64,000 bases of DNA from Fragum whitleyi (Eukaryota > Mollusca > Bivalvia > Cardiida > Cardiidae): assembly GCA_948146395.1 (NCBI GenBank), contig OX411548.1, forward strand, positions 65,057,020 through 65,121,019. Direction: 5' to 3'. The position numbers and the translations under genes are program-made. Under the pieces are notes generated by a model that was given only the letters and a program-made list of their open reading frames with translations, was not told where the DNA came from and did no database searches. Shown here in pieces: positions 29 through 50,581 of the stretch (positions within the stretch are counted from its first letter, which is position 1; each line of letters starts with the position of its first letter).

Positions 29-205
29 CCAGCGGGAAGCAACTAAATGTGTGACAGTCGCCATATTCCTCCGGCTCCCCGACGCATGGCGACGTTAGAT
101 TTCCGAATGATAACTCATCGCAAGTCCTGTTTCTGTACCGGGTACCGCCGCCACACGTGACGTCACAGCTTGTCCAAGTACTCCATTCAAACCATAATCC
201 AGCAA
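29..205 (-). CDS. Exon 32: TSR27
   Basis: 177 bp, phase 1-1. Acceptor attacag|TTGCTGG, donor CTGG|GTTAGA. Motifs: [24 protein letters not shown]. It is four codons longer than the array exons, starts Val-Ala-Gly, and has ELSFGN where others have GPFYGG. The donor is in phase 1, so the gene continues to the left of the window. Confidence 0.87.
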
Positions 206-3200: not shown

Positions 3201-6200
3201 TCTTAATAAAATTATAATTTTTAATTTCTTGGGGTATCAAATCTGAGTGCATTCTCTCTTTGTTCATTAACCGTTCGACAAGATAACTGACAATTGTTCT
3301 TATCAATTCTGAGATGAACCCTATATTCACATATTTAGACCAACCAAAAAGCATTATTTAACGAAGTCGTTGTGAATTTCACGAGGAAAACTAGATCAGC
3401 AGGCGAGTGATAACGGTACAAATTACGTGATATTTAAGTTTAAGATGATATGACCGTCGATATGCTAATAAGTAGGTTCAAATAAGGAATAATGGACAAT
3501 TCCTCTATCAAATGTTGTGTATAAAACAAAGTGTTTTTACTATATTTTTACATTTTCTTATTACTAAACAGCACCCATCACCCATCGTGTTTAAGAGCGG
3601 AAAATGCGAATATATAAACATTAATAAGATAGACAAAATCATTGTTTTTTTCAAATCATTTCATTTTCAAAAAATGTTTGAATGGTAATAAGCTTCAATT
3701 AGATTTGAACATATTCAAATTCTTCATTCAAGTTTGATTTTAAAAGTTACTGATGAAAAGGTTGGTCGATACAGAAGTCAAACGGACTATTAGATTTACT
3801 TTTCATGGCGTATAAATATGCTGTCATCTCGGACGAAGATGGATTAAATTAGATAAGTTGAGGATGATTTCATACATATGCAATAACCGAAAATAGATTA
3901 AAAGAGTTTAATTGAAGAATGTATTATACGTACTTGGACAGAGCATTTGATTACACTCCTTAGTGTCATTAGCAGGGCCTTCACACTCTGCACCACCGTA
4001 GAACGGTCCATCGCAATCTCTTTCTCGGACACTGATCCCGCCTCCGCATGTGGCTGAACACTCTTGCCATTCGCCCCAGCTTAACCACACTCCGTCAACT
4101 GTAACGAAAATTTTGAATCACTAACAGTTATTAATAGTGTAAAATTGAAACTTACCTCTATCATAACCATTTTTAATCGCTCATTCAACGCTCCATCCAT
4201 TCTTAACAAAACGCTCCAAAATCGTAAAAAAAAAGAAAAAAAAATCGGAATCGTCAAAAAAGATTTTTTCTTTGAAAATTAACAACTAGGTCCACTTCAT
4301 TTTTAGCCTTTGTGAATTTTAAATTGCCTGATTGGTAATTAAAACCAACAAATAACGTATATCTTTTTTCAAGAGAGGTAATAAATATCGCTTATTTCGT
4401 CCCATTTCCAATCTCTTTTAAATTTCATTCAAAACTCGCTCAACACACTCATTCAGTATCATCTTGTCAATTTCACGATCTTCCTAGCTGTATGAAAAGA
4501 GGGGATAGAGGAGGTCAATGCATTTCAATCTCAAAATAAAAATCCTAAGAAATTCATTTACTTTGTGAAAACTTGTTTCAAATAAAGAATACGAGTTGTA
4601 TTATCGATGAAAGTTTAAAAGCATGCTACTACAATATGAATGCTTAATCAATTTTGACGATCTGGAACATCAGCAAATAAGGTTGAAACTCGTTCATATA
4701 GAACTTAAATGAGGTAGAAGTTGTTTTATTTATGCAATTCACTTCAGGGACATACTTTAAAACTCTACGTATATATTTCATTTTATCAAAAGTTTCACAT
4801 GGTGTATGTATGTAACCATTAAAAAGTTTTTATGTTTAATACTAGGATATGATATAGTTTGCAATACCATTAACCCCGGACATAGGATTAAATAAAAGGT
4901 CAGTTAGAAAAATTGCCTACTTACTTGGACAGTTGTGCATGTTACACTCCTGTGAGTCGTTCCTGGGACCTTCACAGTCGGCCCCTCCGTAAAACGGTCC
5001 CTCACAAGTTCGATTTCGCCATTGTATGCCTCCACCACAAGTGACGTTACAATTCTCCCACGCGCTCCATTCGAGGAATTTGCCGTCAACTGAAACGTTT
5101 CCGGGAGACATGATATAAAACTGGCAAGTATTAAAAGATATTTGAATAATATAACATAAAAAAATGATAAATAATTAAGCATCAATTACTTTTAAGTAAA
5201 TAAGTGTAGTATTTTAAAATTATATTTTCTAGAGTCTAGTTGTAAAGACGATTCACTAAAGCAGTGTGTCTATATTTGGCACAATTAACAAGACTAGCTG
5301 TTTCTACTTAAGATCTGAATCTCCTAGCAAAGATTGAAAATGTATCTTTTATATTTTAATATAGAAATTACATCCAAGGAATTCAAAAGAATATCATTTT
5401 TATAAACAATATTAATTTAAGAATTCTTACTAAGAGAATATGAAAAGTTTGTACTATAAAATGTTTACAATATGTGATTACGTGACTCTCGCTAATGATG
5501 TGTGATGATTAATTGTTCTTTCCTAAGAGATTAGATCCCTATAATAAGCATATGTATATCTATTGAACTACGTTGCGTCACATTTAAATCTATCACCACA
5601 CAAATTAAGGATAGATAACCATTGGTTTTAAAAATATTGTTAACCTGAGAAAATACCACTGCAAAATGATCATAACAATCAAATTTTGTGGTACATGTAT
5701 TTCATTGTCCTTGTTTATATCATTTTCACGTCTGATCCACGGACCTGTTGACCTTTGGAATCATGCGGAGTGGAACAACAAAAATGACATAGTTACAGTT
5801 CGCTTCGTTTACGTGTTTTTGATCACCAGGGTTTGATACTTGTGTGGTCAAGATTATAATGTGGATATGTGGGTCATTTCTTGCTACAGTTTTACTTTCT
5901 ACTGTATGATTTGATAGTTCAGAAATCTAATTGTCATTACGGACGAGACTTTATCGAAACAGATAATTACAAAACAAAGTTTGGATATCTTGAATTTATT
6001 CGGTAAGAATCATCAGTACAAATAAATGAATCATCTGTAGCTGATACAAAGAGATAAAGAGACTAAGACGGTCCCTTTTAAACCACATTATGGTCTTGTT
6101 TTCCTTTCAATCACAAAATCATAGTTAGTAGAATTTGTTGATTTGTAAGAAAGAATATGATAGGACTTCGAAAAGTCATATCCATTTCAGGTGCTAGCAA

Positions 6201-9200
6201 AGATAAGAATTTCTGATTAAAAGAGTCTACCTCATTTATAGCAAAAAACTCAAATATTCAAATTTCAAAAAGAAATATCGAAGATTCTATAACCAATAAT
6301 ATTAGATTTAAATGTAGATTAATAGAACAAATGTCACTCAAACTAAATCAAATTCGAGTTTCATCAACTGTGGTTATATTTCCACAGTAAATAGCCTGCG
6401 ACAAATAAGTGTGACTTGAATGGCCATCATAGAAATTATATCGTTGTTATAAGTTAATTGTACTAATAATACCATAGCTTATTATTATAAGATAGCTTTG
6501 CCGTTTGATAATTAACATTAATAAGGAGTATCAACTGGATCAGTATACTTCATAAGTAAAGAGTATCTAACCTTCTTTGAGTGAGACTTTTATATATGTT
6601 TTTCGTGGTTTTGAAATAATACAAATGTTTATCTTTAAATTAATAAACTCGATTAATCTTGACATTACTTATTAAAGATCGACAACATGATGTTCCGTGC
6701 ATCGTTAGTGTTGAGGCAAAGGGTGCTTTGAATAGGTTAGATTTCGTTGCTCGTGATATCGTGATAACATACAACATACAAAACAACATCATTGGCAAGA
6801 ACTATAACTATCTCAAAAATATTTTTATTGATTGTTTAAATTGAATTTGTTTTATATATCAGATCGGCAGAATGATCACCCAAGACCGACACACCAAAGG
6901 TCTCTCATCTGATAGAGGGACCAGAGTTGTCTCAAGTCAGGAAGGAATTGGCGTGATCATTCCACACTGACGAATGCCGCGCAGTTTCGCTTAAAGGCAC
7001 TTTATGATATTTGATTGGCACGTGGTTATCTGACCCGGGCAGTTGTGTGTGTTGCAATCTTGGGTCTCAATAGCCGGGCCTGAACAGTTGGCTCCCCCGT
7101 GGTATGGGCCGTTGCAGGTCCTGTTTCGGGAGTGTTTGGCCCCACCGCACGTGACCGGACATTCCTCCCACTGGCTCCAGTCCATCCATATTCCATCAAC
7201 TAAAATATATAGACAAAACACAATGATATATTGACATACAAAGGACAAAATTACCTTTAAATATATTGAATAAATGTATATTTAAAGAAAATATATTTAA
7301 TTACCTTGATTATTATTTTCAGGTGATCACTTCACTGCTTTCAAAATTAAAAAAATATAAAGAATATAAACTTCGTAGTAGTATTGATACAATGTAATTT
7401 ATTTACTGAATATTGCCCTGTATTGAACTGTTTTTATACTAAGATGTCTTTTATCAATATGCAAATGGTTTGTCCACTTTAGGGTATAATCCTTCGCTTT
7501 TATAATGTTATTCTAAACACTATCATTGACCTGTATCGTACTGTTTTTTTTTTTAAACTAAGATTTCTTCTTTCAATGTGACAATGGTTTTTCCCATCTA
7601 GGGTATGATCCTTCGCTTTTATAATGCTATTTTAAACACTATCTTTACAGAAAACAAACATATAAGAAAGAAAGAGTTAACCTGGAAATCCTCATTTTAA
7701 GGAAAATAATAAAAGTCTTTTTCATAAACTTCTAATCAGACACTTCAAACGATAAAAAATCACATCACGAAGTAAGACACATCTAAAAAATATCAATCTA
7801 GGAGTAAAGACACGTGAAAAGTGGTCTTCACATTTGTCTGTTTTTTTAAGCCAGGTGCTTGTATCAATCCTGTAAGACCAATTTCCATTTGACCTGCTTT
7901 CTAAATATACTACCACAACTCCTTTAGCATACGGGGAATCATCTACTATGCAGATAGGATAGAACATCAACCCATAATGTAAAATAAAACTAAACATTCT
8001 CTACTACATCCAAATTTAATATGACAAGTAAATTTAAGGTATGGCTTAAGGAGAAATTGTTTACTTTTTGATGCAAATATGCCAATTATAAATTAATCGA
8101 TTCATTTCCGGTCGACATCTTAAACAATGATAGATCATGGTTCGGATACCATTTCAAGGTATGCTTCAGACTGTTTATTCCTGGCATTGCCATATCTTTC
8201 CAAACGTTCAATTATGGAGGATTTAAACAGTTTTATGATGGTGTTTTATATACATCAACTTAAGAAGTAGATGAAAATGTTAATTTCTATTTTGATAAGC
8301 CCCATGTATGTGCATTACTGTAGGAATTTTTAGGAGAGTGCATGAGGATATTCATTTGAATATGATGCTTTGTCCTGAGTATTAATAAATTAATCAGCCC
8401 TTGTGGACTTCAATCGCTTTCATGATCGTTTTAATATAAGCATTGTTATACTTAAAAACAACCTTTTTTCCCGATTGCACTTTTTAAATTTGAAAATTGA
8501 TCTACTGACTGCGATTACAGTTAAACTTGTGTTAAGCGACCACCGAAGGAACCACCAAAAAGCGGTTGTTTATGGGAATCGTCGCTTTATACAAAATATT
8601 ATAATAAATGTGACAGTTCATTTTGATCGCATTTATAGATTGTCGGTCAAGTCGTACTTAATCCTATGATGTTTAAACCCATTAGAATCGTCTTATTGAG
8701 ACGATTCTAATGGGTTCAAACAACATAAAATTCAACAAAAACCAACTTTTCGTGAAGAATGTCCCCTTTTTCTGAGATTTTGCTTACGGTGAAGGGACTT
8801 TTATGGTGGTCGCTTAATAAAATTGGTCGCTTAATACACGTGGTCGCTCGAGCAATATCGACTGTTTTTCATTCATAATCGCATTACCGGGGCAGGGAAA
8901 GTCGTTACAAGTCCTGTTTTCAAGATCTGGTCCCTCGCAGTCAGCTCCACCATAAAAGGGACCATCGCATGTCCGGTTCCTCCACTGAATCCCTGTACCA
9001 CACGTGACGTCACACTCCTGCCATGTTGCCCACGGTATCCATACACCATCAACTGAAAAACAGAAATAATCGTTTTTTTTTCTTTTTACTAGCTGATCTA
9101 TAGCTTACCAATAGATGTTTAAGTATTAAATTGAGATTGTCATCATGACAAATGTTCTCGGATCGCGATTGTATGTTCAATTTATTACATATACACTAAT

Positions 9201-36200: not shown

Positions 36201-38934
36201 TCAATTGCATTTGCACAATTTGCTTTCAAAAGTTAAAAATGCACTAATTTTTGTAATTTTACTAGGTAAAAATGCCACAAAAACCTATTTTTTTGAAGAA
36301 ATTACCCAATGAATTTTTCTTATTTTCTGATATGTTTATAATTCATATTTTTCCTTTATTTGGTAAAAAATTCAGCATACCTTTCCATGCAAATAAGAAA
36401 GTTTTTCGTTATTTTTCAGTGTCCCCCCCTAATAGAATGACGGTTTTAACGCATTTTTATTGTTAAATTTAATGATCCAGTCATTCTATTGATATCATAT
36501 GTTGAAAAGAAGCTAAATTATGAAGTTTTACCATCATTATTCTACGTTATTTCCATAAGTAGAATCTTACGAAAACCGGTCTTTTTAAACAACGCGCAAA
36601 AAGAGCCGTAAAATAAACGAAAACCCACTTCCGGTTTATAGAGTCGGGAGGCGGCTGTCCATTGCCACCTTAAATAGAAAACATTCATGGTATATTGAAA
36701 GCTGTAGTTACCGGGTTTTTTGTTCCCCACCCATACGTCACGGTTTAACGGGTCACACTGGCTTTCGATATTGGTCAACTATCATAGGCCTAACATGCTT
36801 CGAATCCTTTTTTTTTTTGCAAATATTTCGATCCCTTTTATCCTTGAAGTAGACCTAGGCATTTTATCTACCTTCCATAGGAATATTTGATTGCAGTTTG
36901 TTATTAAGATTGGGGCCTTGAGATCTACTAAATCAAAATGTCGTTCAAAAGATCCAGAGTATTCATTTTAAAAAGGACGTGATAATTTATATCGTTTCAA
37001 CCCTGGCGTCTTTTCTTTTTATGTCAATGTAAAATGTGGAGTACAGAAAGGCTCGGTTCGAGTAAACTCGTCGATGCTATTTTTACTGCTGTATTCAATG
37101 TAGATGAATATTAAATTTTATTATCAGAATCATTGATTTATCAGCTAAATCTTCTTTTGATTAACATACAGAAAAAGTATTGAAGAATTTTCTCCTTTTT
37201 TTAGTTAGAAAATGTGTATAAGCATATATCAAAAGAACATTCACAAAACTTTTTTTTACAAATACTTGATTACAAGTAAAGGGTCTTTCTGGACATTTTA
37301 TCAGACTAGATTATGACGTCACTGTCTGGTTTTGAATGTAGTCCCCGCCCTTCATGACCTAGTGTCACGTAGCTCACTTATTCGAGCAAATCGTCAGGTT
37401 ATGGGATATATTTTTTGAATTTCAAACGAAATAGCGGCCTTTCATTGGAGGAAAAAATAGGGCGATCGGTAAAGATATTTATAATAGGATACGATGGTTT
37501 CACGTCAGTGACTTAAACGAGCAGCGTTGGCGACGTTGAATGTTTTCACTCAAAGTTTCGAGGGCCATCGTCATTTCAACTGACGCCATCGAGTTTTTCC
37601 AGGGTTTTCCCGTATTTTTTAAAAATAGTCCGTCTATGTACATCCGAGGATTATCGTGAGATTGGCCGAGTGGTGTTCCGAATTCTCCTGCGCTCTCAGC
37701 TAAGCCGACACTTACGACGACAGGGTCATGACGATACTCCGACTTTTTTTGTTCCTGAACAGCTAAGGTAGAAATACGCTTATTAACGGATATGCTGTGC
37801 ATATCCATACAAAGCGAGATAAAGTTTAAGGGCCATTTCCTCAAAGACAACAAGAAAATAATCCTTTATATTATAAAACAGTGCGAAGCTGCAAATCGAA
37901 AATCAATTGACTAACCAATGTACTCATTTACAATAAGATGGCCGCCAAAATAAGACATTTACGTCATATTGTTAAATCATTTTCCGTGATGGGCGACTAG
38001 AATACCGCAACTAAAGCTTGAAAAAGCTGTAGTTAAGACGTTTGGGTCGCCCTCTGTGTATTTTGTTATTTATATCTCTCTATCTTTCAAATAAGGCAAG
38101 TGTGCTCATCATCACAAGAGCAATTCAGACTTTCAATGGGGTTTAGCTTTTTTGTAAGAATTAAAATTTATGCCCCTTACTTACATAATTTCTTTGCATT
38201 ATCCAGCACCTGCAGTTGAGCATAGGCATGCGCACATGGTGGTCAAGTTGAAATTAAGATTATATTCTGTGCATGAAAACCAATAACTTATTTGAGAAAA
38301 AAAAAACCCCAAGGAAATAGCATGGGCTTTCATTTTGATCTCTAGCAAAATTTGAGCAGTTTACATACCTGTAAAGGCCCCTTCAAACCCAATTTGTTTA
38401 CAAGCAATGTCTTTTTCTGTGACTCCCCAATGGTCGTCTGCGCAAATCGACATTCTTGTATCCGTGATATCGTCTGTTATCTCCAGACGACCTTCACCGT
38501 GGGCAAGGATATTTCGCATCATCAGCATCCCTAGAAATATACATCACAGGCAATTATTTCAAAAACATATTTTTGTCATATAATTTATGTAAAGGGATTC
38601 AAAAACATCTCGATTTCAAAATTAACATAATGTGGGTGGAGTAGTTCTAATATTTCATTTTTTTTCAAAATGGCAATAATAATGATTTTTTCTTCAATAA
38701 TTTGATATCCGGCACGCAAAACTCATTGAAATTATCCTTTATTGGAATAATTTCCGACTTTTTCTGATACTGAGATTTTCAAATTCCTCTAAAAAAAATG
38801 CGACTTTTGTGACTTTTGTTAAAGACGGCTTATGTGTTTGACCATTTGTTACAGCCACAATGAACAAAATTTCAAACCCATTTTTCTCCTAGAATACGCA
38901 AGTTTAGACGATCATTCCTCCATTCCATCTTTCT

Positions 38935-38970
<36 letters not shown>

Positions 38971-39133
38971 TTATCGAAAGACTACACATACATGTATGTA
39001 TACATGTGGTAAACACAGGTGGTCGTTTAGAAGTTCTTGCAATATGCATGCAACATACATGCGATAAAATACTTTTTAATCTACACCGGCCTCCTTAGTA
39101 AACAATCTATTGCATAATGATGTTATGGGTGAA

Positions 39134-39165
<32 letters not shown>

Positions 39166-40561
39166 TAAAAAAAACTTATTTGTAGGCGATTCGGCAAAAG
39201 ATCCATTGAAAGAGTGTTGAGTCTTCATCTTTTTCAGGCCGACAAAACTGCACAAACTGATACGATAAGTAATAATTCGGTCTAAAACGACTTTTTGATT
39301 AAAATAATTTCTCCAGTAAATTACTTATAAAGTTTCAAAGTGTCGACTACAAAAAACTCTTGTCATTTTTTTTCCTCTATCCAAACTATTCATTTAACGG
39401 ATAGTTCCTTCTTGCGTGTTAGGTTAACCCTTTGCTGTTTAATCCCTGCTTCTAACGTGCCTGTGATTATATGATTGAGAAAATATTGTGAAAAAAGAAG
39501 AAATTGCTTCTGACAAGCAATTTCTTCTTTATCCACAATATATTCTACCCTACTGAATGGTTATTTTTCAAATTAAAGTCACTTTTAATTTTCGACTGCA
39601 AAACTTTTGAATTTGGACAGATCCAAAATTTTGTAAAACAGGAAAAGGTTAAGTAAATTCTGATTGCTACCTACCACGACAATTTATTCCTTTGCAAGGC
39701 GCCGTTTCGTTTGTGAATCCCAGGCAAAATCTATCAACTCCCGGCACTCCACCGTTGGAACAGGTTCGATACCTATGTTTGACCCCTCTACCACATGTGT
39801 TCTCCGTAGAACAAGGGCCCCATTCCTGCCAGCCTTCCCAACCTATAAAGAACGAAAATATTAACCCTTCTCACGCATATTCCTACAATACTTACAGCTT
39901 TGACAGACAGTGTAGGCTAGAATCAGTCTGCACTGTGCAGACTGATTCTAATAAAAACTACCTGCTTTGTGTTTAAATATTGGTCGAGTCTGGTTGAAAT
40001 GAAAAAAAAAAAATAATAATAATAAAATATAATAAAAAATGGCAATTTAATTTCACACAAAATAAAAATTCAGCATGACCACTGTTTAAAATTCACAAAT
40101 AGTCTCTTGATTACCTTTTGCTGAGGAAGTTAGACAATAATTATGTATGTCTTATCAACGGATAATTTGACAACTCATATTTCTTTTTTTTCAGCCGAAA
40201 AATGTATTTTTAAAAATGCCGAGGAAAATCATAATGTTTACGCCTATCATTGATGTGTCTAGTTAAAAAAATAAGCAGAATGTCTACCAATTAGCAAAGA
40301 TGAAACTAAGAACTCACGTGGACAGCTGATAAGCGTACACATCTTATATTCCACATCCCGTCCGAAACATTTCGAGGACGAAACGGCTTTGTTGGTCACG
40401 AGGTCCATACAGCTACGCCGCCTGGTGGTATAACCCGTCGCACACGTGACCGAACACGGACCCCACTCCTCCCACTCGCCCCACCCGAGGTCATTCACTG
40501 GAAATAGGGATCATATGAAAAACGATAGAAGAAATGGCCTTTTTTAATTTTGTTATAACTC

Positions 40562-40602
<41 letters not shown>

Positions 40603-43600
40603 ATAAAACTCCATGAACTTAACATGAAAAACTGGCTTGATTAATCAAATTTGATGAAAAAAATTACACACAGATAAGAGTCTTTTCTTTAAGGTCCATA
40701 ATAAAAGTAACATTTTAGAGTAAGAGCAGATTTTCTATTGAAAAATAAATTAACATTTTTTTTCAATAGAAAATCTGCTCTTACTCTAATATGTTACTTT
40801 TATTGTGGACCTTGAAGAAAAGACTCTTAACTGTGTGTAATTGTTTTATCAAATTTATATTTAAATTTAAATTAATATATATTTTTCATACCTTAACTGA
40901 CTTGCAAAAGAATACACTTCGTTAAAAATGGTTTTTATCTCATTTACTGCTGATGATGTATCATTATTTTTTTAATTCTTCCTAACCGTGGTATTCTTAT
41001 AAATTATCAAAAGAATAATTTAAGATTTTTTGTGCTAAATTCTTTATCCCATGTATGAGACTACTACTGTGGTATGTGCATACCGAATGCGGTTTTTGAC
41101 AAAATAATTGCTTTGACAAATTAATTACAATAAACGAAGAAGATAATGTTAATTTTCAAATGTAGTAGGCACTAGTGAATTCGCGCTTGATGGAGCTGTC
41201 GAGGCCTTTCTTTTTCTACGAACATGGGCCCAGAAGTTTGCGTAAAAAAGAATTTAGAAAAAGGCCTGTGATGGAATAAATTTTTCCAGTCTTTGCATTG
41301 GAGTTTTGACTCTAATCAAAACACGACCATTAACTAAGATGGCCATTTTCTATGAATAATCCAAAAGTGAAATAGACTCTCACGATTTTTGCATCAACAA
41401 TATTCCCTCCTTTAGGGATTTTGATACTACATTTAATATTGAAAATGAATAGAAATAGCAATCTCATTCTTGTGTTGAACAACTTGGATGGAAGGGTGAA
41501 ATAACTTTTGAAAAATAACACATTTTCAAAATGTTTATCATGACCATATCACTTTGATATGTCAATTTCTAAAAAAATAACATACTTGAAACTTATAGAA
41601 TTTCTCAAAATGTAAAGAAAGAAATACAATTTATAATTGGTTCAATGAAATGAATGAATATTTACTCTTTATCATATTTACTTTCGTAAACAAAAAATAT
41701 GCGTTTCTTTTGCAAGTCAGTAAATATACTTTGTGGAACTTGAAATATAGACTTCGCTTCATGATAATATCAGTATGTATTTGGTTGTACATAAGGCTCG
41801 TTCATGTCGTCAAACAGTTCCTTTCAAAGAGAGGAAGTATCTTTTTTTTAATCTAATGCCAAAGTAACGAAAACCGAAAGTTATTCAAAAATGATTTAAT
41901 TAGCCAGATTTGGGAAAATATTCGAACATTCGTACTTTTGAGCTCGCAATGGGTACCAGTCCATCCATCAGCACAGAAACAGAAAAAGGTCCTCTCCATC
42001 TTCGCGTTCATCGTATCCAGGCAACGGGCGCCATTTTGACATGGATCCTGTGCACACGGACCTAAAGCTTCCTGTAATTGAAAAGAAAACGCTCTTCCTC
42101 AAATTATGTGTGAAATCTGATGTAGCTGGCTTCTTTATTCGAACACGTGTGTCCCGAGAATCTGGGTTACTCGCAAGACATCGACAATGTTCATGATTCA
42201 TTTCCGAGGTATGAACGACGAAATAGGACTTCTTCTATGGTCGAATACGGACAGGTTGGATTACTACGAAGAACACCGAGTTGTAACGAAGAACAAAGCA
42301 GTACACCGGATTAGATCAGATGATACTACTATTTTCCCGAATATATAGCCAAATTCGAACCAATTTTAAAATTTTCGAAATCAGAATCAAATCGAGATAT
42401 GTAAGACCGGGACTTGCATCTCGCTTTTGACAAATAATACGGCGTTTTAATCTCGAGGATGATTTTATTTATATAAAATTGTTACAGAATACGATATTAC
42501 TGCACACCATTGTTATAAGTTAATTTGTAGTTAATTTAAGGGGGGTCTTTTTCAATTCATTTATATATGAAACTAAAAACCTTATCCCGCTGTATGAAGT
42601 CGCGAAACATTAATGAAAATATAATGGCTGCAAATATTATGATTTATGAAAAACAAAACAAAAGTATCATGGCCTTTCATAATTAGAAAATACTTTCTGC
42701 GCAAGCTAACAAAATAGTTTCGCACTCGAAATATCTTTTATGTCGGAATGAAACCGATTTTCAATCATTCAGAATGCACAAATCTTTACAGAGACTTCAT
42801 ATAATTAGTTATACATTTTTTATATCTGAATACTATAAAAACTAACTCTATACAATTTCGAGGCAGACTTCCTAGGAACTATTTTTTGTGCAAGCAAACT
42901 TAATATCGGCGCCAAAATTATTATATAGACAATATTTTATTGACTTAAACTTTACAGTTTCTCGTCATAATATGTTTTAACAAAACCACAAATAATTAGT
43001 CACATTAGCAAAGTATAAGCATTCAAGACATTTCTGGATCCATCAAAAACTAGATTACGTTATCAAAAGACCTAAAATATAAGTATCATAATAGATCAAT
43101 TGGAAGAGAAGCAAGTTCTTAATACAACTAATGACTGAACTGTTCAATATCTTATCTTACATTACAGTCATTACTCATTTAATACGTTATTTATCAAACT
43201 TGATCGTCGTGCAAAAGCTTCTTTAATAAACTTAGAAAGATTTAATAGAGTCTTTTTATTCTTGCTCTTAAGGAGTATAGACAACTTATATACATTTGGG
43301 CGTAAGTAAAAGAATTTATCTATGTAAATACGTCTTATATCAGAGTATTTATTGCAGGCAAGGAGGAAATGAAACTCATCCTCTATATCGTTTGTATTAC
43401 ACAATTCGCAATAACGCAGATTTCTCTCAATTCTACAGTTGCCGTATCTGCCAGTCTCAATTCTTAGAGCGTGAGATGAAAGCCTTATCCTTGAAATGTA
43501 GCTAAACCATTATACAACTGTGGCTCTGAATGATCTTTCCAACAATTTGAAATGCAAAGCCTCTGGCCAGACTGTGCAGTATGTTCAATGCAGTCTTCAA

Positions 43601-44145
43601 TATGTTGTGTGTAGATAGTTAAGATGTGAATTACAGTCATTCAGCGAATATTCTAATTGCACTATTTGAATATATTTAACACAAAAACCTGTATTAAAAA
43701 TAGAATTAAAACATAGGATTGATTAGGATTTTTGTTTCGTACATCCATGAATTAAAAAAAGGCACTCTTTTCATATCTATTTAATATTATTCATGCTGCT
43801 CAGATATGAAAACGTATAATATCAGTAAATTTGAAATTCAAGCTACATTTGAAACGACTTTTCGGTTAATATAACGAAATATATTAGTAATAATAATTGT
43901 ATGTATTTCTACAGTAACAATTATTATGTAATTTATCTTCTGAAATGGAATTTCCACAGTAAAGCATTAATAATATATGCATTTTTTTAAAACAATTTTT
44001 TAGATAAAACAATTCAATATAATCAATGTTACTATTCTACTGGTATTGTATGATATATATCTGTGTCTTTTATTATGGGCCAGTTGCCTAGAAATACATG
44101 ACAAATAAAATTGGAAAATTGAAATTAAGCACAGAAGTAAAGGCA

Positions 44146-44178
<33 letters not shown>

Positions 44179-44716
44179 TATAATGAAAAAATAATGAAAA
44201 TAAAGAAAAACTCGACATATTTTGGGACCATTTTGTGCACAAACATACGCATTATCTGAGCGTTCAAAATTGGTTTAACACCTCATCTATTCATTAGGCA
44301 ATCGGAATGTAAGGAAAAGTGGCAAAATCAACTTGAATTGAATTATTTTGACTACAGACCTGTTCAAGGGAGAAAGCGTTTCGATGATGATATTCTGTAC
44401 CAATACCCGCTTCTTCATCGACAAGACTTTCGTTAAACTGTTCGTGATCCGCATCATTCAGTTGACAAACAAATTCTGCGGCCTGGTAGTTGAAGGATCG
44501 ACATCGGCTCGACTTCAGACACTCGTAGGCACAATGAATCACCTGCCTCTTCGTGGAAAACTCCTCAAACACGCGCCCCACGAGCCTCCTCCCCGGGAAG
44601 GAGAGCGTCGAATTTACGGTGAACTCATACACTCTAATGTCCGATTCGCATATAACAAATGAAGATATATTCACCAATGCAACAATTGATAATAAAAATA
44701 TGGATAAGTTTCCCAT
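29..44716 (-). CDS. Large secreted PAN-EGF-TSR-SRCR-TSR(n) multidomain gene, 5' complete, 3' beyond window
   Basis: Gene-level entry joining 33 exons listed separately. Order from the 5' end: signal peptide and PAN/Apple, EGF, TSR1, TSR2, SRCR (two exons), TSR3, an unrecognised Cys exon, TSR4 to TSR27. The PAN-EGF intron is phase 0; all later introns are phase 1, and the split codon at the TSR-TSR joints is usually Ile or Val followed by Asp-Gly. Summed coding length is about 5,491 bp (1,830 residues) with no stop. TSR-rich secreted proteins of this kind (hemicentin, coadhesin, SCO-spondin) act in extracellular matrix or cell-surface recognition; PAN and SRCR are protein- or glycan-binding modules. 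I do not recognise a named protein with this order. No transmembrane segment is visible in the part seen. Exon joining is by splice signals and phase only, so whether all exons enter one transcript is inferred. Confidence 0.8.
535..745 (+). repeat. Dispersed repeat copy 1 (uninterrupted)
   Basis: Begins with the string ATTCGACATTTTTCGACGGC and ends near TTTTTAACACGTCAA. Clearly homologous to 2327-2680. It keeps an intact AAAGTATACAATAAAC segment where the other copy carries a TA-bounded insert. Type of element unknown. Confidence 0.7.
1126..1205 (+). other. tRNA-like Pol III promoter (A and B box) in repeat
   Basis: GTGGCCAAATGGTTAG resembles an A box and AGGTTCGAGTC a B box, with a GGCGTCCAAACGCC hairpin between them like a long variable arm. 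The acceptor stem is not intact, so this is a SINE-type head, not a functional tRNA. Confidence 0.55.
1868..1925 (-). other. Second, opposing tRNA-like promoter in repeat
   Basis: On the minus strand, a TGGCTAA-x-ACGGC A box and GGTTCAAATCCC B box with tRNA-like spacing. The same feature is present in the second copy near 55505-55570. Confidence 0.5.
2327..2680 (+). repeat. Dispersed repeat copy 2, interrupted by a TA element
   Basis: Same start string as copy 1 and the same ACGTC-rich body. Interrupted at a TA by 2458-2612, after which the homology resumes through the CGATTTTATCGACCGACC segment. Confidence 0.7.
2458..2612 (+). mobile_element. 155-bp TA-flanked miniature inverted-repeat element
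   Basis: Ends are ACAGTCAAAACTGT and ACAGGTTTGACCGT in inverted orientation, flanked by TA on both sides. The paralogous site at about 667-682 lacks it, showing the empty site. Contains short direct repeats of AAGCAAGC. TA duplication and CAGTCAAA-like ends suggest a Tc1/mariner-mobilised MITE. Confidence 0.7.
3934..4098 (-). CDS. Exon 31: TSR26, last of the 165-bp series
   Basis: 165 bp, phase 1-1. Acceptor gttacag|TTGACGG, donor CCAA|GTACGT. Motifs: [33 protein letters not shown]. Confidence 0.92.
4160..4487 (+). repeat. ~400-bp repeat family ending GTCAATTTCACGAT, copy
   Basis: Shares CATTCA, CGCTCCAAA, GGTAATAAATATCGC and CAAAACTCGCTCAACACACT strings with copies near 51629-51999 and 53834-54246, and partial copies at 45.6, 59.2, 60.7, 61.6 and 63.3 kb. 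Some copies start with the inverted form, GTGAAATTGAC. Non-coding, probably a MITE. Confidence 0.65.
4925..5089 (-). CDS. Exon 30: TSR25
   Basis: 165 bp, phase 1-1. Acceptor tttcag|TTGACGG, donor CCAA|GTAAGT. Motifs: [10 protein letters not shown] (Phe for first Trp), [24 protein letters not shown]. Confidence 0.92.
5090..7034. other. Intron with a structured 91-nt hairpin and otherwise plain AT-rich DNA
   Basis: Between TSR24 and TSR25. Apart from the hairpin at 6871-6961, I see no exon, repeat family or coding stretch that I can support. Confidence 0.5.
6871..6961. other. 91-nt predicted multi-stem hairpin
   Basis: Outer arms AATGATCAC / GTGATCATT (9 bp, perfect), continued by CCAA / TTGG after one bulged base and by CC / GG. 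An inner stem, GGTCTCTC / GAGGGACC, pairs over 8 positions with one G-T. The whole is more GC-rich than its surroundings. Could be a tiny MITE or a structured RNA; strand undetermined. Confidence 0.45.
7035..7199 (-). CDS. Exon 29: TSR24
   Basis: 165 bp, phase 1-1. Acceptor ttttag|TTGATGG, donor CCGG|GTCAGA (weak). Motifs: [33 protein letters not shown]. Confidence 0.9.
7417..7645 (+). repeat. Tandem duplication, two ~114-bp units
   Basis: Unit 1 (7417-7529) and unit 2 (7530-7645) share CCTGTAT, ACTGTTTTT, ACTAAGAT and AGGGTATAATCCTTCGC (one mismatch) in the same order. Non-coding. Confidence 0.75.
8516..8865 (+). mobile_element. TA-type MITE with AAGCGACC ends, copy a
   Basis: Ends ACAGTTAAACTTGTGTTAAG and, inverted, GTGGTCGCTCGAGCAATATC then GACTGT. 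A central palindrome (about 8668-8730) is built on AGAATCGTCTTATTGAGACG. Non-autonomous; same family as 24465-24816 and 45206-45549. Its right end is 22 bp from the TSR23 donor. Confidence 0.75.
8888..9052 (-). CDS. Exon 28: TSR23
   Basis: 165 bp, phase 1-1. Acceptor ttttcag|TTGATGG, donor CCCG|GTAATG. Motifs: [34 protein letters not shown]; ends TCNDFPCP. It has no internal ATG. A TA-type repeat ends 22 bp beyond the donor. Confidence 0.92.
9491..9655 (-). CDS. Exon 27: TSR22
   Basis: 165 bp, phase 1-1. Acceptor tgcag|TTGACGG, donor CCAA|GTAAGG. The tryptophan ladder is reduced ([10 protein letters not shown]: only one Trp). [31 protein letters not shown] is shared with TSR23 and TSR25, suggesting these exons are close relatives. 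Confidence 0.92.
9872..10036 (-). CDS. Exon 26: TSR21
   Basis: 165 bp, phase 1-1. Acceptor tttaag|TTGACGG, donor CCGA|GTAAGT. Motifs: [33 protein letters not shown]. Confidence 0.92.
10508..10672 (-). CDS. Exon 25: TSR20
   Basis: 165 bp, phase 1-1. Acceptor ttctag|TCGACGG, donor CCAA|GTAAGT. Motifs: [34 protein letters not shown]. Confidence 0.92.
10673..11453. other. Intron, nothing recognised
   Basis: 780 bp between TSR19 and TSR20: AT-rich, no repeat family or exon signal that I can support. Confidence 0.5.
11454..11618 (-). CDS. Exon 24: TSR19 (divergent member)
   Basis: 165 bp, phase 1-1. Acceptor tacaag|ATGATGG gives Asp-Asp-Gly, donor CCCG|GTACAG. Motifs: [25 protein letters not shown]. 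The loop is LYNYGLDC, without Gly-Pro or Gly-Gly. Still open, and exactly the array length. Confidence 0.88.
11973..12137 (-). CDS. Exon 23: TSR18
   Basis: 165 bp, phase 1-1. Acceptor ttttag|TTGATGG, donor CCTA|GTAAGT. Motifs: [10 protein letters not shown], then CTHACGTG: Ala replaces the Ser/Thr that would carry O-fucose. GPYFDGAEC loop. Confidence 0.92.
12681..12845 (-). CDS. Exon 22: TSR17
   Basis: 165 bp, phase 1-1. Acceptor aacag|TTGATGG, donor CCAG|GTAAAC. Motifs: [24 protein letters not shown]. The loop is [10 protein letters not shown] in place of GPFYGG. Confidence 0.92.
13215..13455 (+). mobile_element. MITE with GAGCCTGTGCG ends, copy 1
   Basis: Starts ATGAGCCTGTGCGAGACAAT and ends with the inverted form, ATTGTTGGAAATGTCACGCA then CAGGCTCAT. 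The centre carries CTGGACAGACTGTGCAGATG. Related copies lie at 20418-20638, 24196-24438, 29388-29629 and, in part, near 43510. No ORF of substance. Confidence 0.75.
13491..13655 (-). CDS. Exon 21: TSR16
   Basis: 165 bp, phase 1-1. Acceptor ttcag|TTGATGG, donor CCAG|GTCATT (weak). Motifs: [34 protein letters not shown] repeat of the GAGCCTGTGCG-ended family ends about 35 bp from the donor. Confidence 0.9.
14530..14694 (-). CDS. Exon 20: TSR15
   Basis: 165 bp, phase 1-1. Acceptor aatcag|TTCACGG, donor CCAG|GTAAAT. Begins Val-His-Gly rather than Val-Asp-Gly. Motifs: [34 protein letters not shown]; ends DCFLRMCP, resembling TSR5. Confidence 0.92.
14695..16442. other. Intron with one MITE and a poly(A) run
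   Basis: Between TSR14 and TSR15. Has an A18-type run near 14982 and the 15750-16058 element; the rest is AT-rich without identifiable content. Confidence 0.55.
15750..16058 (+). mobile_element. MITE with TATACAAATATCCGTG, copy 1
   Basis: Begins TTATAATTATACAAATATCC and ends near CATACAAAACACTAAGTACG, with an internal palindrome CTCGGAAGAGCCTCGACAAT region. Three other copies at 17668-17964, 25747-26047 and 56057-57303 share the same order of blocks. Confidence 0.75.
16443..16607 (-). CDS. Exon 19: TSR14
   Basis: 165 bp, phase 1-1. Acceptor tttcag|TTGATGG, donor CCAG|GTACCC. Motifs: [10 protein letters not shown] (Phe for first Trp), [23 protein letters not shown]; most like TSR6 around CSHTCG. 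Confidence 0.92.
16988..17152 (-). CDS. Exon 18: TSR13
   Basis: 165 bp, phase 1-1. Acceptor attcag|TTGACGG, donor CCAA|GTAATG. Motifs: [33 protein letters not shown]. Only about 380 bp from TSR14. Confidence 0.92.
17668..17964 (+). mobile_element. MITE with TATACAAATATCCGTG, copy 2
   Basis: Same block order as copy 1; the centre reads ATAATGCGGTTATTTG, giving the uninterrupted state of the site occupied by a transposon in the 56-kb copy. Confidence 0.75.
17965..19238. other. Intron stretch with one unassigned open frame
   Basis: An open frame on + at 18423-18722 (99 codons) ends in an acidic, Tyr-rich tail ([13 protein letters not shown]). I cannot assign it or find splice or promoter support; probably chance or an old element. 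The rest of the stretch holds nothing identifiable. Confidence 0.4.
19239..19403 (-). CDS. Exon 17: TSR12
   Basis: 165 bp, phase 1-1. Acceptor actgtag|TCGATGG, donor CCAA|GTAAGA. Motifs: [24 protein letters not shown]. The loop is QPENGGEVC. Several NxT sequons. Confidence 0.9.
20080..20244 (-). CDS. Exon 16: TSR11
   Basis: 165 bp, phase 1-1. Acceptor tttcag|TCGATGG, donor CCAG|GTAATA. Motifs: [33 protein letters not shown]. Confidence 0.92.
20418..20638 (+). mobile_element. MITE with GAGCCTGTGCG-like ends, copy 2
   Basis: Left end ATGAGCATGTGCGAGAAATT, right end inverted GAAAATGTCTCGCACAGGCT. The interior differs from the other copies, so only the termini are conserved. Confidence 0.65.
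20639..22570. other. Intron, AT-rich with homopolymer runs
   Basis: Contains A- and T-runs near 21464-21506, 21579-21594 and 22210-22242. No exon or repeat family that I can support. Confidence 0.5.
22571..22735 (-). CDS. Exon 15: TSR10
   Basis: 165 bp, phase 1-1. Acceptor ttttag|TTGACGG, donor CCAA|GTATGT. Motifs: [37 protein letters not shown] is both a sequon and part of the O-fucose site. Confidence 0.92.
23172..23336 (-). CDS. Exon 14: TSR9
   Basis: 165 bp, phase 1-1. Acceptor aaccaag|TGGACGG, donor CCCG|GTATGT. Motifs: [25 protein letters not shown]. The loop is [10 protein letters not shown] nearby in-frame TTG/ATG in the intron is not a start. Confidence 0.9.
24018..24178. repeat. 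Foldback element, ~75-bp arms
   Basis: Arms run from TTTTATTTGAGGCAAGCTGA through GTCTAAAATAGAAAAAAGTT, and are complemented by AACTTTTTCTATTTTAGAC and AAGATCAGCTTTTCTCAAAT. The loop is around 24095-24110. Non-coding snap-back repeat. Confidence 0.75.
24196..24438 (+). mobile_element. MITE with GAGCCTGTGCG-like ends, copy 3
   Basis: Left ATGAGCCTGAGCGTGACATT, right inverted TCGTTGGAAATATCACCCGA. The centre carries CAAAGACTCTGGCCATCCTG and CAGTCTGTCCAGAGTCTTCA. Lies next to another MITE (24465). Confidence 0.7.
24465..24816 (+). mobile_element. TA-type MITE with AAGCGACC ends, copy b
   Basis: TA then ACAGTAAAACGTGTATTAAG at the left; GTGGTCGCTTGAGCAAGATT then GACTGT and TA at the right. Central palindrome on AGAATCGTCTCATAGAGACG. 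The right end is 7 bp from the TSR8 donor. Confidence 0.78.
24824..24988 (-). CDS. Exon 13: TSR8
   Basis: 165 bp, phase 1-1. Acceptor ttccag|TTGACGG, donor CCAG|GTAAGT. Motifs: [10 protein letters not shown] (first Trp replaced by Phe), [20 protein letters not shown] and NCS sequons. A TA-bounded repeat ends 7 bp beyond the donor. Confidence 0.92.
25472..25636 (-). CDS. Exon 12: TSR7
   Basis: 165 bp, phase 1-1. Acceptor tttgtag|TTGATGG, donor CCCA|GTATGT. Motifs: [25 protein letters not shown]; the loop is DPLHGGSGC instead of GPFYGG. Confidence 0.92.
25747..26047 (+). mobile_element. MITE with TATACAAATATCCGTG, copy 3
   Basis: Starts CTTATAACTATACAAATATT and ends near TTTTTCATACAAAAGATTAA; internal CTAGGCAGAGCCTCGACAAT as in the other copies. 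In the intron between TSR6 and TSR7. Confidence 0.72.
26340..26504 (-). CDS. Exon 11: TSR6
   Basis: 165 bp, phase 1-1. Acceptor tttacag|TGGATGG, donor CCAG|GTGAGA. Motifs: [35 protein letters not shown]-fucose consensus kept. Confidence 0.92.
26896..27060 (-). CDS. Exon 10: TSR5, first of 22 uniform 165-bp exons
   Basis: 165 bp, phase 1-1. Acceptor tgcag|TCGATGG, donor CCAG|GTATTC. Motifs: [34 protein letters not shown]. Ends EECFPKMCP, so the usual CN before the penultimate residues is CF, as in TSR15. Confidence 0.9.
27746..27901 (-). CDS. Exon 9: TSR4 (short variant)
   Basis: 156 bp, phase 1-1. Acceptor ttaccag|GCAACGG, donor GCTG|GTACTA (non-consensus at +5). Contains [10 protein letters not shown] and [16 protein letters not shown]. 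The GPFYGG loop of the main array is replaced by a shorter segment ending in PCFG. It starts with Asn-Gly instead of Asp-Gly. It is the last TSR before the uniform 165-bp exon series begins. Confidence 0.85.
28112..28267 (-). CDS. Exon 8 (candidate): cysteine-containing non-TSR module
   Basis: 156 bp, open throughout, phase 1-1. Good acceptor (tttttgtcacag|TCTTTC) and consensus donor (ACTG|GTGAGT). It has six cysteines in [17 protein letters not shown] and NLC, with an NKT and an NCS sequon, but no tryptophan ladder and no TSR signature. Joined to TSR4 it gives a Gly codon in frame. I do not recognise the domain. It could be a rapidly diverged module or a decaying exon; the splice signals and symmetric phase are the main support. 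Confidence 0.5.
29388..29629 (+). mobile_element. MITE with GAGCCTGTGCG-like ends, copy 4
   Basis: Left ATGAGCATATGCGTGACATT, right inverted TAGTTGGAAATGTCAAGCAC; internal CAGACTGTGCAGACGCACAG close to copy 1 at 13.2 kb. Confidence 0.72.
30669..31254 (+). mobile_element. 586-bp TA-flanked inverted-repeat element
   Basis: Left end CACTACTCAAAAGTTCTAAG then CGGCCACC; right end, inverted, CACTCCTCAAAACTCCTAAG then CGGCCACT. TA on both sides. Carries no transposase; probably a Tc1/mariner-type non-autonomous copy. Confidence 0.72.
32626..32796 (-). CDS. Exon 7: TSR3
   Basis: 171 bp, phase 1-1. Acceptor caacag|TACGAGG, donor TGTCCAA|GTAAGT. Contains [10 protein letters not shown] and [16 protein letters not shown], so tryptophan and O-fucose motifs are intact. 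It carries a Pro-rich AHPPPNFGG variant of the GPxFGG loop. It is isolated from the main array by about 4.7 kb. Confidence 0.9.
33792..33989 (-). CDS. Exon 6: C-terminal half of the SRCR domain
   Basis: 198 bp, phase 1-1. Acceptor aaaaaag|TTGAAGG (weak pyrimidine tract), donor AGAG|GTAAAA. The end matches the SRCR C-terminal half: [23 protein letters not shown], giving the remaining four cysteines of a six-cysteine group-A SRCR. The first ~25 residues are a low-homology segment with NST and NET sequons, an extended loop relative to the usual domain. Donor phase joins TSR3 as a Val codon. Confidence 0.82.
34535..34985 (+). mobile_element. Inverted-repeat element with internal palindrome, copy 1
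   Basis: Terminal inverted segments TTCGGAACATCACTCGGCCA and, inverted, TTCGCAACATCGCTCGGACT, both leading into TTTCCGTAAACTG. A central hairpin is at about 34742-34805 (GCATATTATGATTTGAAA / TTTCAAATCATAATATGC). A related copy lies in opposite orientation at 52611-53010. Confidence 0.7.
35086..35166. repeat. Near-perfect palindrome, ~38-bp arms
   Basis: AAATAACGGCTGAAAAATCT, then TAATTTTTGAGAATGA, mirrored by TCATTCTCAAAAATTA and AGATTTTTTCAGCCGTTATT around a 3-4 base centre. One mismatch or indel seen. Confidence 0.85.
35180..35285. repeat. Palindrome with GC-rich core
   Basis: Arms GATAATTTACGCCATATAAC and GTTATATGCGTAAATTGTC, meeting at a core with two GCGGAGCG repeats (35220-35242). Immediately follows the palindrome at 35086, so the two form a cluster of snap-backs. 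Confidence 0.7.
35541..35862 (+). mobile_element. tRNA-derived SINE
   Basis: A tRNA-like head at about 35544-35608: AGAGGTAGCGAGTCGGAC as A box region, GGGTTCGATCCCCG as a perfect B box and T-arm. A body of ~230 bp follows, ending in TTGTTGAACGCGGTGTTGAA, which resembles the conserved 3' domain (TGTTGAA-x-GGCGTTAAAC) of many mollusc/deuterostome SINEs, then an A-rich (AAAC)n tail to about 35862. Retroposed by a partner LINE; lies in the SRCR intron opposite to the gene. Confidence 0.82.
35899..36673 (+). mobile_element. 775-bp TTAA-bounded inverted-repeat element
   Basis: Left TTAAGGTAGCAATGGACA, right (inverted) TTAAGGTGGCAATGGACA. TTAA at both edges fits a TTAA target such as piggyBac uses, though the rest of the terminus was not matched to a family. 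No transposase. Confidence 0.68.
38369..38530 (-). CDS. Exon 5: N-terminal half of an SRCR domain
   Basis: 162 bp, phase 1-1. Acceptor tttctag|GGATG, donor ACAG|GTATGT. Encodes GRLEI, then [11 protein letters not shown] and [12 protein letters not shown]. These match the first half of scavenger receptor cysteine-rich domains, where GRVEV, W-G-x-V-C-DD-x-W and CRQLGF-GGA are typical. Two of the six group-A cysteines are here. The other half is on the next exon, about 4.4 kb away, after an intron filled with repeats. Confidence 0.85.
38937..38968 (+). repeat. Poly(A) run of about 30
   Basis: Uninterrupted A run after TTTCTC, in the intron between SRCR-a and TSR2. Confidence 0.9.
39130..39170 (+). 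repeat. (AAT)n microsatellite
   Basis: About eleven ATA/ATAAT trinucleotide units in the intron between TSR2 and SRCR-a. Confidence 0.9.
39482..39541. repeat. Palindrome, ~26-bp arms
   Basis: AATATTGTGAAAAAAGAAG and AAATTGCTT mirrored by AAGCAATTT and CTTCTTTATCCACAATATT around TGAC. Minor mismatches. Confidence 0.75.
39675..39842 (-). CDS. Exon 4: TSR2 (divergent)
   Basis: 168 bp, phase 1-1. Acceptor tttatag|GTTGGG, donor CGTG|GTAGGT. Shows [10 protein letters not shown] and GVKHRYRTC. The first cysteine segment reads [10 protein letters not shown], with extra residues before the second cysteine, so it does not match the usual O-fucosylation consensus. The joint with TSR1 restores an Arg codon in frame. 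Confidence 0.82.
39914..39946. repeat. Short perfect palindrome
   Basis: TAGAATCAGTCTGCA then CTG then TGCAGACTGATTCTA: 15-bp arms with a 3-base spacer, next to TSR2. A related CAGTCTGCGCAG palindrome lies near 53770-53812. Confidence 0.8.
40318..40497 (-). CDS. Exon 3: TSR1 (divergent thrombospondin type 1 repeat)
   Basis: 180 bp, phase 1-1. Acceptor tttccag|TGAATGAC, donor CCAC|GTGAGT. Contains WGEWEEW (possible C-mannosylation) and CSVTCATG (fits the POFUT2 O-fucose site C-x-x-S/T-C-x-x-G), then two arginine-rich strands and a longer insert before the last two cysteines. It lacks the GPFYGG motif of the main array, so it belongs to a different TSR subgroup. Confidence 0.88.
40561..40602 (+). 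repeat. (CAA)n microsatellite
   Basis: About fourteen CAA units in the intron after the EGF exon, close to TSR1. Confidence 0.92.
40644..40856. repeat. Large foldback, ~95-bp arms
   Basis: Left arm includes AATTACACACAGATAAGAGT, AGGTCCATAATAAAAGTAAC and TTTAGAGTAAGAGCAGATTT; the right arm is its near-exact inverse ending AGACTCTTAACTGTGTGTAA. The loop is about 20 bases (AAAAATAAATTAACATTTTT region). High identity suggests recent origin or conversion. Confidence 0.88.
41936..42071 (-). CDS. Exon 2: EGF-like domain
   Basis: 136 bp, phase 0 acceptor (ttacag|GAAGCT) to phase 1 donor (AAA A|GTACGA). It encodes one EGF-like domain with six cysteines in order: [13 protein letters not shown], then [13 protein letters not shown]. 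The GWTG turn before the last cysteine is the classic EGF signature. There is no Ca-binding D-x-D/N-E motif at the start, so this looks like a non-calcium-binding EGF. It sits about 2.3 kb downstream of the PAN exon, and the phases join exactly. Confidence 0.88.
43171..43514 (-). pseudogene. 5'-truncated non-LTR retrotransposon, C-terminal zinc-finger region
   Basis: An open stretch of about 114 codons ending in a stop. It reads [20 protein letters not shown], then [20 protein letters not shown] and a tail of repeated Leu/Ile-Lys helices. CxxC, then [11 protein letters not shown] and a Y-xx-R spacing, is typical of the zf-RVT region after the reverse transcriptase in many animal LINEs. The RT itself is missing, consistent with 5' truncation. 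A stop marks the 5' limit of the open frame. Confidence 0.72.
44148..44180 (+). repeat. (AAT)n microsatellite
   Basis: About ten AAT units in the first intron. Confidence 0.9.
44360..44716 (-). CDS. Exon 1: signal peptide plus PAN/Apple domain
   Basis: Starts at the ATG at 44716-44714, which has G at -3 and G at +4. The first ~24 residues are a signal peptide (hydrophobic [17 protein letters not shown] core). A PAN/Apple domain follows with the typical spacing: [18 protein letters not shown], then FVCQLND. The exon is 119 codons and ends with a phase-0 donor (CAG|GTCTGT), matching the phase-0 acceptor of the EGF exon. A TATA-like string, TATTTATGTATAAA on the minus strand (44761-44774), lies about 50 bp upstream of the ATG; it could be a core promoter, but an untranslated 5' exon cannot be excluded. 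Several N-x-S/T sequons are present. PAN domains bind proteins or carbohydrates in secreted proteins. Confidence 0.88.
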
Positions 44717-46025: not shown

Positions 46026-46115
46026 ATATAATTCTCCGCGTTACACCGTATAGCGGAGAATTGCTGTCTCAATCAGTGCGACCAAAACCGGTTACGTAGG
46101 TTTGGTCAGTGTGTT
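46026..46115 (+). repeat. A1 split direct repeat
   Basis: 90 bp, identical by eye to 50582-50671. Contains the hairpin AATTCTCCGC / GCGGAGAATT and a second imperfect one, ACCAAAACC / GGTTTGGT. Confidence 0.92.
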
Positions 46116-46117
46116 AA

Positions 46118-46271
46118 TTTAATTCTTTGTTAGTTTCGGACACGCCCAAGTTCAAAAGAAAGAGTAACGAAGAACAATTCCGTTTCAATGCCAAGGTCTC
46201 CAATAAATTGAACGATGTAGAACAGTCTATTGAGTTTAACTCTGCTCAAGCCTTGGATAAGCTTACTGAAG
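46118..46271 (+). CDS. 5' coding exon of the retroelement (gag-like, N-terminal)
   Basis: Open from 46118 (after a TAA at 46115-46117) to a donor GAAG|GTATTT at 46271/46272. Charged helical content: KFKRKSNEEQF, then NKLNDVEQSIEF and LDKLTE. There is no ATG in this frame, so translation may start at a non-AUG codon or on an upstream exon (an acceptor-like TTTGTTAG precedes 46134). The donor is phase 1, matching acceptors at 46792 and 49413. Function unknown; the position suggests a Gag-like N-terminus. Confidence 0.6.
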
Positions 46272-46791
46272 GTATTTTTTAGCGCAGAGAAGTATAGTTT
46301 TCTTAACAAGCCGTACCGCTTTAATTAAGATGCCAATTATTGTAATTAAATGAATAAAAACTACATTGATGTGTATTGATAATAATTATGACTTGATAAA
46401 TAAGATATTCAGTTGACTGATAATCATTTTCTACTGTTTTGAATAAGTGTGTTTCACAGCGTTAATTTGGCTATGCTTAAAGGATAAATCGGCAAAGTTT
46501 ATACTTTTTAATAGGTGACAAGACTCAAAAGAAATTAAGTCAAATGACAGACATTAAAGAATTTACGCAGGATTTTTAGTAGGGCCGTTTCAATTATAGA
46601 GTGGATATTAACGGTCTACATTATTGTTATTTTGTAATATTTATTAGGTATGAAAATTATTTCCTATTTATTTATAATTCTATATATCTATATAGACATC
46701 TTTACATCTTATTATTAGGTTGAAAACCAACACGAATGAGTTCTGAACACTTTACTGAGACCTGTTTGAGTACATTTTGTATTGTTTTCAG
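46272..46791 (+). other. Probable intron inside the retroelement
   Basis: GTATTT donor at 46272 and TTGTTTTCAG acceptor ending at 46791; 520 bp, richer in A+T than the flanking exons and with stops in all relevant frames. Splicing restores a continuous phase-1 frame into the RT ORF. Confidence 0.55.
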
Positions 46792-49358: not shown

Positions 49359-49412
49359 CAATGCAATTTTGCTTTATTGCCACAATTTTATTTCACTTTT
49401 CTTTTATGACAG

Positions 49413-50418: not shown

Positions 50419-50517
50419 TACATAATACGAATATGTTTCTAAACATTTTTGGAAATTCTGAAACGTGAGAATAAATTGAATTTGAATGCCCTACTTCTCT
50501 ATGCTTTGAATTTGTTC

Positions 50518-50576: not shown

Positions 50577-50581
50577 GAGAC

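Follow-up and report, generated by a model that had tools for sequence, protein, structure and literature searches.

The giant TSR gene carried by the 64,000 nucleotides of Fragum whitleyi DNA analysed here (hereafter, the window; contig OX411548.1, C6, positions 65057020-65121019; the assembly has 38 contigs and totals 1.22 Gb) is a real gene that had been read correctly within the window. It belongs to a protostome family with the order PAN-EGF-TSR2-SRCR-TSRn-tail, which is conserved and mislabelled and has apparently not been described. The protein is a new combination of known modules and not a new kind of system. A widespread protein, often named in databases after a vertebrate brain protein unlike it in domain content, is thereby precisely identified.

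Structure of the gene

The gene is on the minus strand, with the start codon at 44716, and extends past base 1 of the window. The model within the window comprises 31 exons, from 44716 to 29, which join into an uninterrupted frame of 1778 codons. All of the 30 introns are in phase 1 except intron 1, which is in phase 0; the compatible phases reported in the earlier note were found again. However, the splice sites were picked while watching the domain frames, and the agreement of AG/GT sites and phases is therefore not independent evidence. Seven splice sites were weak by eye: the donors of the PAN exon (GTCTGT), TSR16 (GTCATT), TSR24 (GTCAGA) and TSR27 (GTTAGA), and the acceptors of the second SRCR half, TSR9 and TSR19. 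The TSR27 donor has outside support, as its join to the downstream exon reads CFPL-AINCAAW, versus CEPL-AIHCADW in Ruditapes. The model was built from the genome sequence alone, and the records of the relatives are mostly gene predictions with common pipeline biases.

Exon 1 (44360-44716) contains the start codon, the signal peptide, read from a hydrophobic N-terminus, and the PAN domain (Pfam PAN_1, 3.1e-8), and exon 2 (41936-42071) contains the EGF domain (Pfam EGF, 3.1e-7). TSR1 and TSR2 are encoded by exons 3 (40318-40497) and 4 (39675-39842), the two halves of the SRCR domain by exons 5 (38369-38530) and 6 (33792-33989; Pfam SRCR, 2.7e-7 for the joined domain), and TSR3 and TSR4 by exons 7 (32626-32796) and 8 (27746-27901), these four TSRs being identified from the exon join and Pfam on the joined head. 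Exons 9 to 31, identified from the exon join and Pfam TSP_1, encode in turn TSR5 (26896-27060), TSR6 (26340-26504), TSR7 (25472-25636), TSR8 (24824-24988), TSR9 (23172-23336), TSR10 (22571-22735), TSR11 (20080-20244), TSR12 (19239-19403), TSR13 (16988-17152), TSR14 (16443-16607), TSR15 (14530-14694), TSR16 (13491-13655), TSR17 (12681-12845), TSR18 (11973-12137), TSR19 (11454-11618), TSR20 (10508-10672), TSR21 (9872-10036), TSR22 (9491-9655), TSR23 (8888-9052), TSR24 (7035-7199), TSR25 (4925-5089), TSR26 (3934-4098) and TSR27 (29-205), the final TSR of the array. From TSR5 on, these exons have 165 bases each, except the last, which has 177. Each TSR of the 25-TSR rod is on its own exon between phase-1 introns. 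Two introns are long, one of 4379 bases ahead of the second SRCR half and one of 4724 bases past TSR3. Inspection by eye of the minus-strand frames that separate TSR3 from TSR4 (minimum 25 aa) revealed no domain. An extra domain is thus unsupported, and the x in the domain order of the earlier note is most simply the 4724-base intron.

Beyond the window, exons 32 (C6 65043832-65043683) and 33 (C6 65042697-65042287, encoding the C-terminal domain) carry the reading frame on past TSR27 in phase 1, also on the minus strand. They are followed by three separate exons (C6 starts 65039763, 65038604 and 65037683), each of which has a phase-compatible acceptor, encodes a variant of a homologous ending GPVIC and reaches a stop. 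Their sequences suggest alternative C-terminal ends, which would give full-length proteins of 1992, 1983 or 1989 residues. No TSR past TSR27 was present in 60 kb downstream among the minus-strand frames of at least 25 aa that were cysteine-rich or long or had the tryptophan motif. The 24+ TSRs proposed for the last part of the array are therefore 24: the number holds and the suggested excess does not. The protein also does not end in TSRs, as the order in the earlier note does, and its real end is a procollagen-C-propeptide-like domain.

The window contained no tRNA or Rfam matches. Within intron 1, an open frame (43174-43509, minus strand) resembles by eye the zinc-binding C-terminus of a LINE reverse transcriptase, and intron 2 contains a hairpin (40657-40847) with 92-base arms, 93% complementary, and a 7-base loop, which looks like a small mobile element. 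A retroelement of the tyrosine-recombinase (DIRS/Ngaro) type (46026-50671) is located ~1.3 kb upstream of the start codon; it has an 862-aa frame (zinc knuckle and reverse transcriptase) and a 291-aa tyrosine-recombinase frame, and on either side of it is a direct repeat, the two copies sharing 90 identical bases. Three 65-base repeats were found at 57845, 59654 and 60848, the second 74% and the third 88% identical to the first. Downstream of the gene (L014, C6 64997021-64999151), inspection by eye showed long frames that resemble gag and include a zinc knuckle.

Domains of the encoded protein

The earlier note had suggested running Pfam on the joined exons and searching for PAN, EGF, SRCR and TSR together in other mollusc proteomes. 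In the joined head, TSP_1 (1e-37), PAN_1 (3e-8), SRCR (3e-7) and EGF (3e-7) all scored over the curated gathering cut-offs, and 23 TSP_1 stretches were obtained from TSR5 to TSR27, versus 23 expected. The exon join and Pfam thus agree with the original reading of one giant gene with this domain order from 44716 to 29, and the estimate of at least 27 TSRs becomes exactly 27 (2+1+24), two before the SRCR and 25 after. Secretion, also proposed at the outset, is supported by the hydrophobic, signal-peptide-like N-terminus and by the lack of a transmembrane segment in the window protein (best 19-residue hydropathy past residue 40, 1.03). We counted 49 WxxW and 24 CxxS/TCxxG motifs in the window protein, which we take to be C-mannosylation and O-fucosylation sites, respectively. 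The PAN-EGF part is apparently present as a single copy in the genome.

The domain past the last TSR, outside the window, is fibrinogen/procollagen-C-propeptide-like and was matched by the family tail profile at 4e-59. Pfam at 0.01 gave no match for this tail, the tail exons alone having sub-threshold matches only, and a phmmer search of the tail against PDB sequences returned 0 matches. With Pfam E up to 10, COLFI was found in 2 of 12 tail sequences (best 2e-4) and Fibrinogen_C in 7 (best 4e-6). A COLFI fold was predicted for the tail domain of a homologue, rather than for the tail of the window gene itself. The later tail profile was built partly from proteins that it then scored, and the earlier one, built from molluscs only, also scored molluscs.

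The tail domain had 71 matches in the genome, two of which are exons of the giant TSR gene. The other 69 are on 10 other contigs (C19, C4, C17, C16, C12, C11, C14, C1, C3 and C5; e.g. L038-L045, L047 and L048), the top three with 43-44% identity, and several have a stop in frame. Of twelve tail loci (3.1-3.4 kb each), two belong to this gene and the other ten contained tail matches but no TSR, PAN, EGF or SRCR, and none of the other tail copies was seen by eye within 100 kb of a listed TSR (150 TSR places scored of 695 candidates). The tail is therefore a common module in this genome and is not, on its own, a mark of the family. Its copy number weakens the tail as a family mark and leaves the domain order unaffected, so the odds of the readings considered below are unchanged.

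A larger second TSR cluster was found on the plus strand of C2 (14695930-14754497, L019-L025), with 48 TSR matches, one of them weak, and many of its TSRs have an NPEPQYGG-like stretch. This cluster was rejected as a gene of the same type, as no PAN, EGF, SRCR or tail was found between 14.65 and 14.79 Mb, a region where some of the sequence is N.

A conserved family in protostomes

We searched with the window head as query and with a profile from nine molluscs, for which 120 of 258 matches were listed. Among these listed matches, relatives were found in bivalves and gastropods, in Owenia (annelid), Lingula (brachiopod), Tubulanus and Lineus (nemerteans) and Priapulus (priapulid). Of the 145 retrieved proteins, 18 have PAN-TSR2-SRCR-TSRn-tail in a single chain (P0001-P0006, P0008, P0034-P0037, P0040, P0043, P0044, P0047, P0051, P0052 and P0069). 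They come from 16 species: 12 molluscs and one each of annelid, brachiopod, nemertean and priapulid. Owenia has two of these proteins, and two others are, by their names, isoforms of one Magallana gene. The phyla of four of the relatives were checked, and outside the molluscs the complete order is represented by one species per phylum. Thus, the gene is not the unfamiliar curiosity of a single mollusc that it had seemed to be, since the order recurs in five phyla among the retrieved proteins.

Head identity to the window protein was 60% for Ruditapes, 58% for Mercenaria and 52% for Mya. The one-chain members have 6 to 27 TSRs after the SRCR, and the Lingula member has two SRCRs. EGF was scored in 16 of the 18, the exceptions being Mya and Priapulus; filtered hmmsearch missed the EGF of the window protein and several others, and the unfiltered search recovered all but these two. 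With profiles built exclusively from molluscs, the tail was detected outside that phylum as well, at 1e-68 in Owenia, 3e-65 in Lingula, 2e-59 in Priapulus and 2e-51 in Tubulanus. In Owenia P0034 and Priapulus P0043, PAN_1 passed at E 0.01, the Pfam SRCR and EGF models gave no match, and the SRCR was reached only by the mollusc-built SRCR profile. Fourteen more of the 145 proteins have a truncated order, with Dreissena reduced to TSRs and tail.

The 43 rows with a non-TSR match correspond to 32 members, 10 non-members and the window model. The rejected candidates were six neurexin-4-type proteins (one so named), a sponge (P0121) and a clam (P0134) protein with SRCR and TSR, a Haliotis protein with TSR and PAN (P0136) and a medusa protein with EGF (P0024). 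The sponge, coral, sea star, acorn worm and tunicate entries that were checked had neither a PAN head nor a tail with these profiles. A TSR protein in a Verrucomicrobiales metagenome bin (P0137) is probably a eukaryotic contamination.

The earlier note knew of no described protein with this order. The open-licence literature searched contained no description of the PAN-EGF-TSR2-SRCR-TSRn-tail architecture, and the combination is not named in the accessible part of a sea-slug survey of TSR and scavenger proteins. To this extent the claim stands, but the family is already present in databases under misleading names.

The tail tree grouped the window with Ruditapes, Mercenaria, Mya and Dreissena, and the TSR1-TSR2-SRCR tree with Ruditapes, Mercenaria and Mya (support 100/99 in both). 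The deeper branches of both trees were weak and at odds with the species tree, with Priapulus inside the lophotrochozoans in the tail tree. The 18 one-chain proteins are orthologues or close homologues of the window gene. Reciprocal best matches to Ruditapes were obtained for 18 of the 27 TSRs, in the same order and with 60-81% identity, the mean identity of TSR5-27 of the window to one another being 48%. Only 8 of 27 were reciprocal with Owenia, and the order was mostly gone, except for the first three and the last. The array is therefore older than the divergence of these clams, whereas on a longer time scale it has been reshuffled. The shared domain order in five protostome phyla makes it probable that an early protostome already had this architecture and passed it on. 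This shared order is a test case for the building of an early protostome matrix.

Possible function

We favour, with some confidence, a secreted multidomain extracellular-matrix glycoprotein of ~1985 residues, acting as a tether or bridge in the matrix. The head (PAN, EGF, two TSRs and SRCR) would bind glycan or protein ligands, and the rod, probably C-mannosylated and O-fucosylated, would serve as a spacer, very roughly 0.15 micrometre long if its 27 units were fully extended at the usual length of a single TSR. The C-terminal domain would anchor, bind or oligomerise the molecule, so that the protein could tether or bridge components of an extracellular matrix, perhaps one that is apical or cuticular. 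The ends are conserved, with 6-27 TSRs between them, and the molecule therefore fits a tether of variable length better than a signalling receptor. The symmetric exons would permit in-frame skipping, and the three candidate last exons could provide alternative C-terminal ends. By analogy, the tail domain may mediate trimerisation, and a procollagen-propeptide-like domain on a TSR rod makes this a testable question. Neurexin-IV/Caspr, which carries a related domain, is monomeric.

SRCR, TSR and fibrinogen-like domains serve recognition in invertebrates, and this genome has an expanded set of tail domains (the 69 further matches). A secreted immune recognition protein, the head and perhaps a fibrinogen-like tail binding microbes and the TSR array bridging to haemocytes, would accommodate both facts, and genes called SCO-spondin-like are upregulated in abalone haemocytes after Vibrio (PMC11250055). 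However, that label spans many unrelated TSR proteins and such reports have no direct tie to the window gene. Furthermore, the PAN-EGF part is apparently single copy and the order has been kept across five phyla, which is not the pattern of typical expanded immune families. We consider this function unlikely; the immune or barrier role suggested at first found no direct support here and is retained only as an alternative.

A structural role in shell, mucus or an adhesive matrix seems less likely still. A pearl-oyster gene with its best match to Xenopus SCO-spondin-like has been found expressed in several tissues, mantle included (PMC3893171), and limpet pedal mucus contains TSP1 proteins (PMC7333891). 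However, the two mucus proteins with TSP1 have other partners, a cystine knot in one and vWFD with EGF and Kazal in the other, and members of the family also occur in animals that make no mollusc-type shell (a priapulid, nemerteans and an oweniid).

The database names (SCO-spondin-like) and the TSR array would also be explained by a true SCO-spondin orthologue making a glial secretion like Reissner substance. According to PMC5543218, a SCO-spondin antibody stains the radial glia of Owenia and Priapulus, both of which carry the family, and Ofu-SCO is expressed in Owenia radial glia. However, SCO-spondin consists of vWFD, C8, TIL, LDLrA, TSP-1 and SCOR repeats and a cystine knot (PMC7333891, the limpet-mucus paper). 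At Pfam E<=0.01, the window protein and its counterparts in Owenia (P0034), Priapulus and Lingula had no match to vWFD, C8, TIL, LDLrA or a cystine knot. Orthology is thus refuted at the domain level, with TSP-1 as the only match among these six domain types, and we regard this origin as very improbable. The five usable frames of the Ofu-SCO primers published in PMC5543218 had no exact match in P0034 or P0069, so the identity of Ofu-SCO with either protein is unsupported; this is not decisive, as the primers may correspond to untranslated sequence. The SCO-spondin label does not match the domain content, and expression reports under that label therefore need re-reading.

A bolder extension of the tether model is doubtful: the tail, outside any collagen, would trimerise three TSR rods with PAN/EGF/SRCR heads, the alternative last exons tuning assembly, and this early-protostome protein, and not SCO-spondin, would be the antigen in the radial glia of Owenia and Priapulus. 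If true, the antigen reading would alter an argument for bilaterian glial homology. Finally, the two long introns (4379 and 4724 bases) could separate two neighbouring genes wrongly joined as head and TSR array, but this is scarcely credible because the one-chain order occurs in 18 of 145 retrieved proteins and the trees of both ends group the window with the same clams.

Comparison with known proteins

Vertebrate SCO-spondin resembles the window protein in its long TSR array and in being a secreted glycoprotein, but it has vWFD, C8, TIL, LDLrA and a cystine knot, whereas the window protein has PAN, SRCR and a procollagen-like tail. Neurexin-IV/Caspr is the nearest named sequence relative of the C-terminal domain. 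Its F5/8C and laminin G domains and transmembrane segment had no counterpart matched in the window protein. The C-propeptide of fibrillar procollagens (COLFI) is the nearest solved fold of the tail domain, as judged from the predicted structure; fibrillar collagens have a triple helix, whereas the window protein had no Pfam collagen match. Spondin-like TSR arrays are shared with hemicentin, coadhesin and the C2 cluster, but the immunoglobulin, vWA and nidogen-type domains of hemicentin had no match in the window protein. Sponge P0121 joins SRCRs to TSRs, as in the window protein, but without the PAN head and the tail. The closest counterparts are the family relatives named SCO-spondin-like, SSPO-like, adt-1-like, hypothetical or uncharacterised, which differ in the number of TSRs after the SRCR (6-27), in the EGF unscored in Mya and Priapulus and in the two SRCRs of Lingula, and which have the same order from PAN through to the tail.
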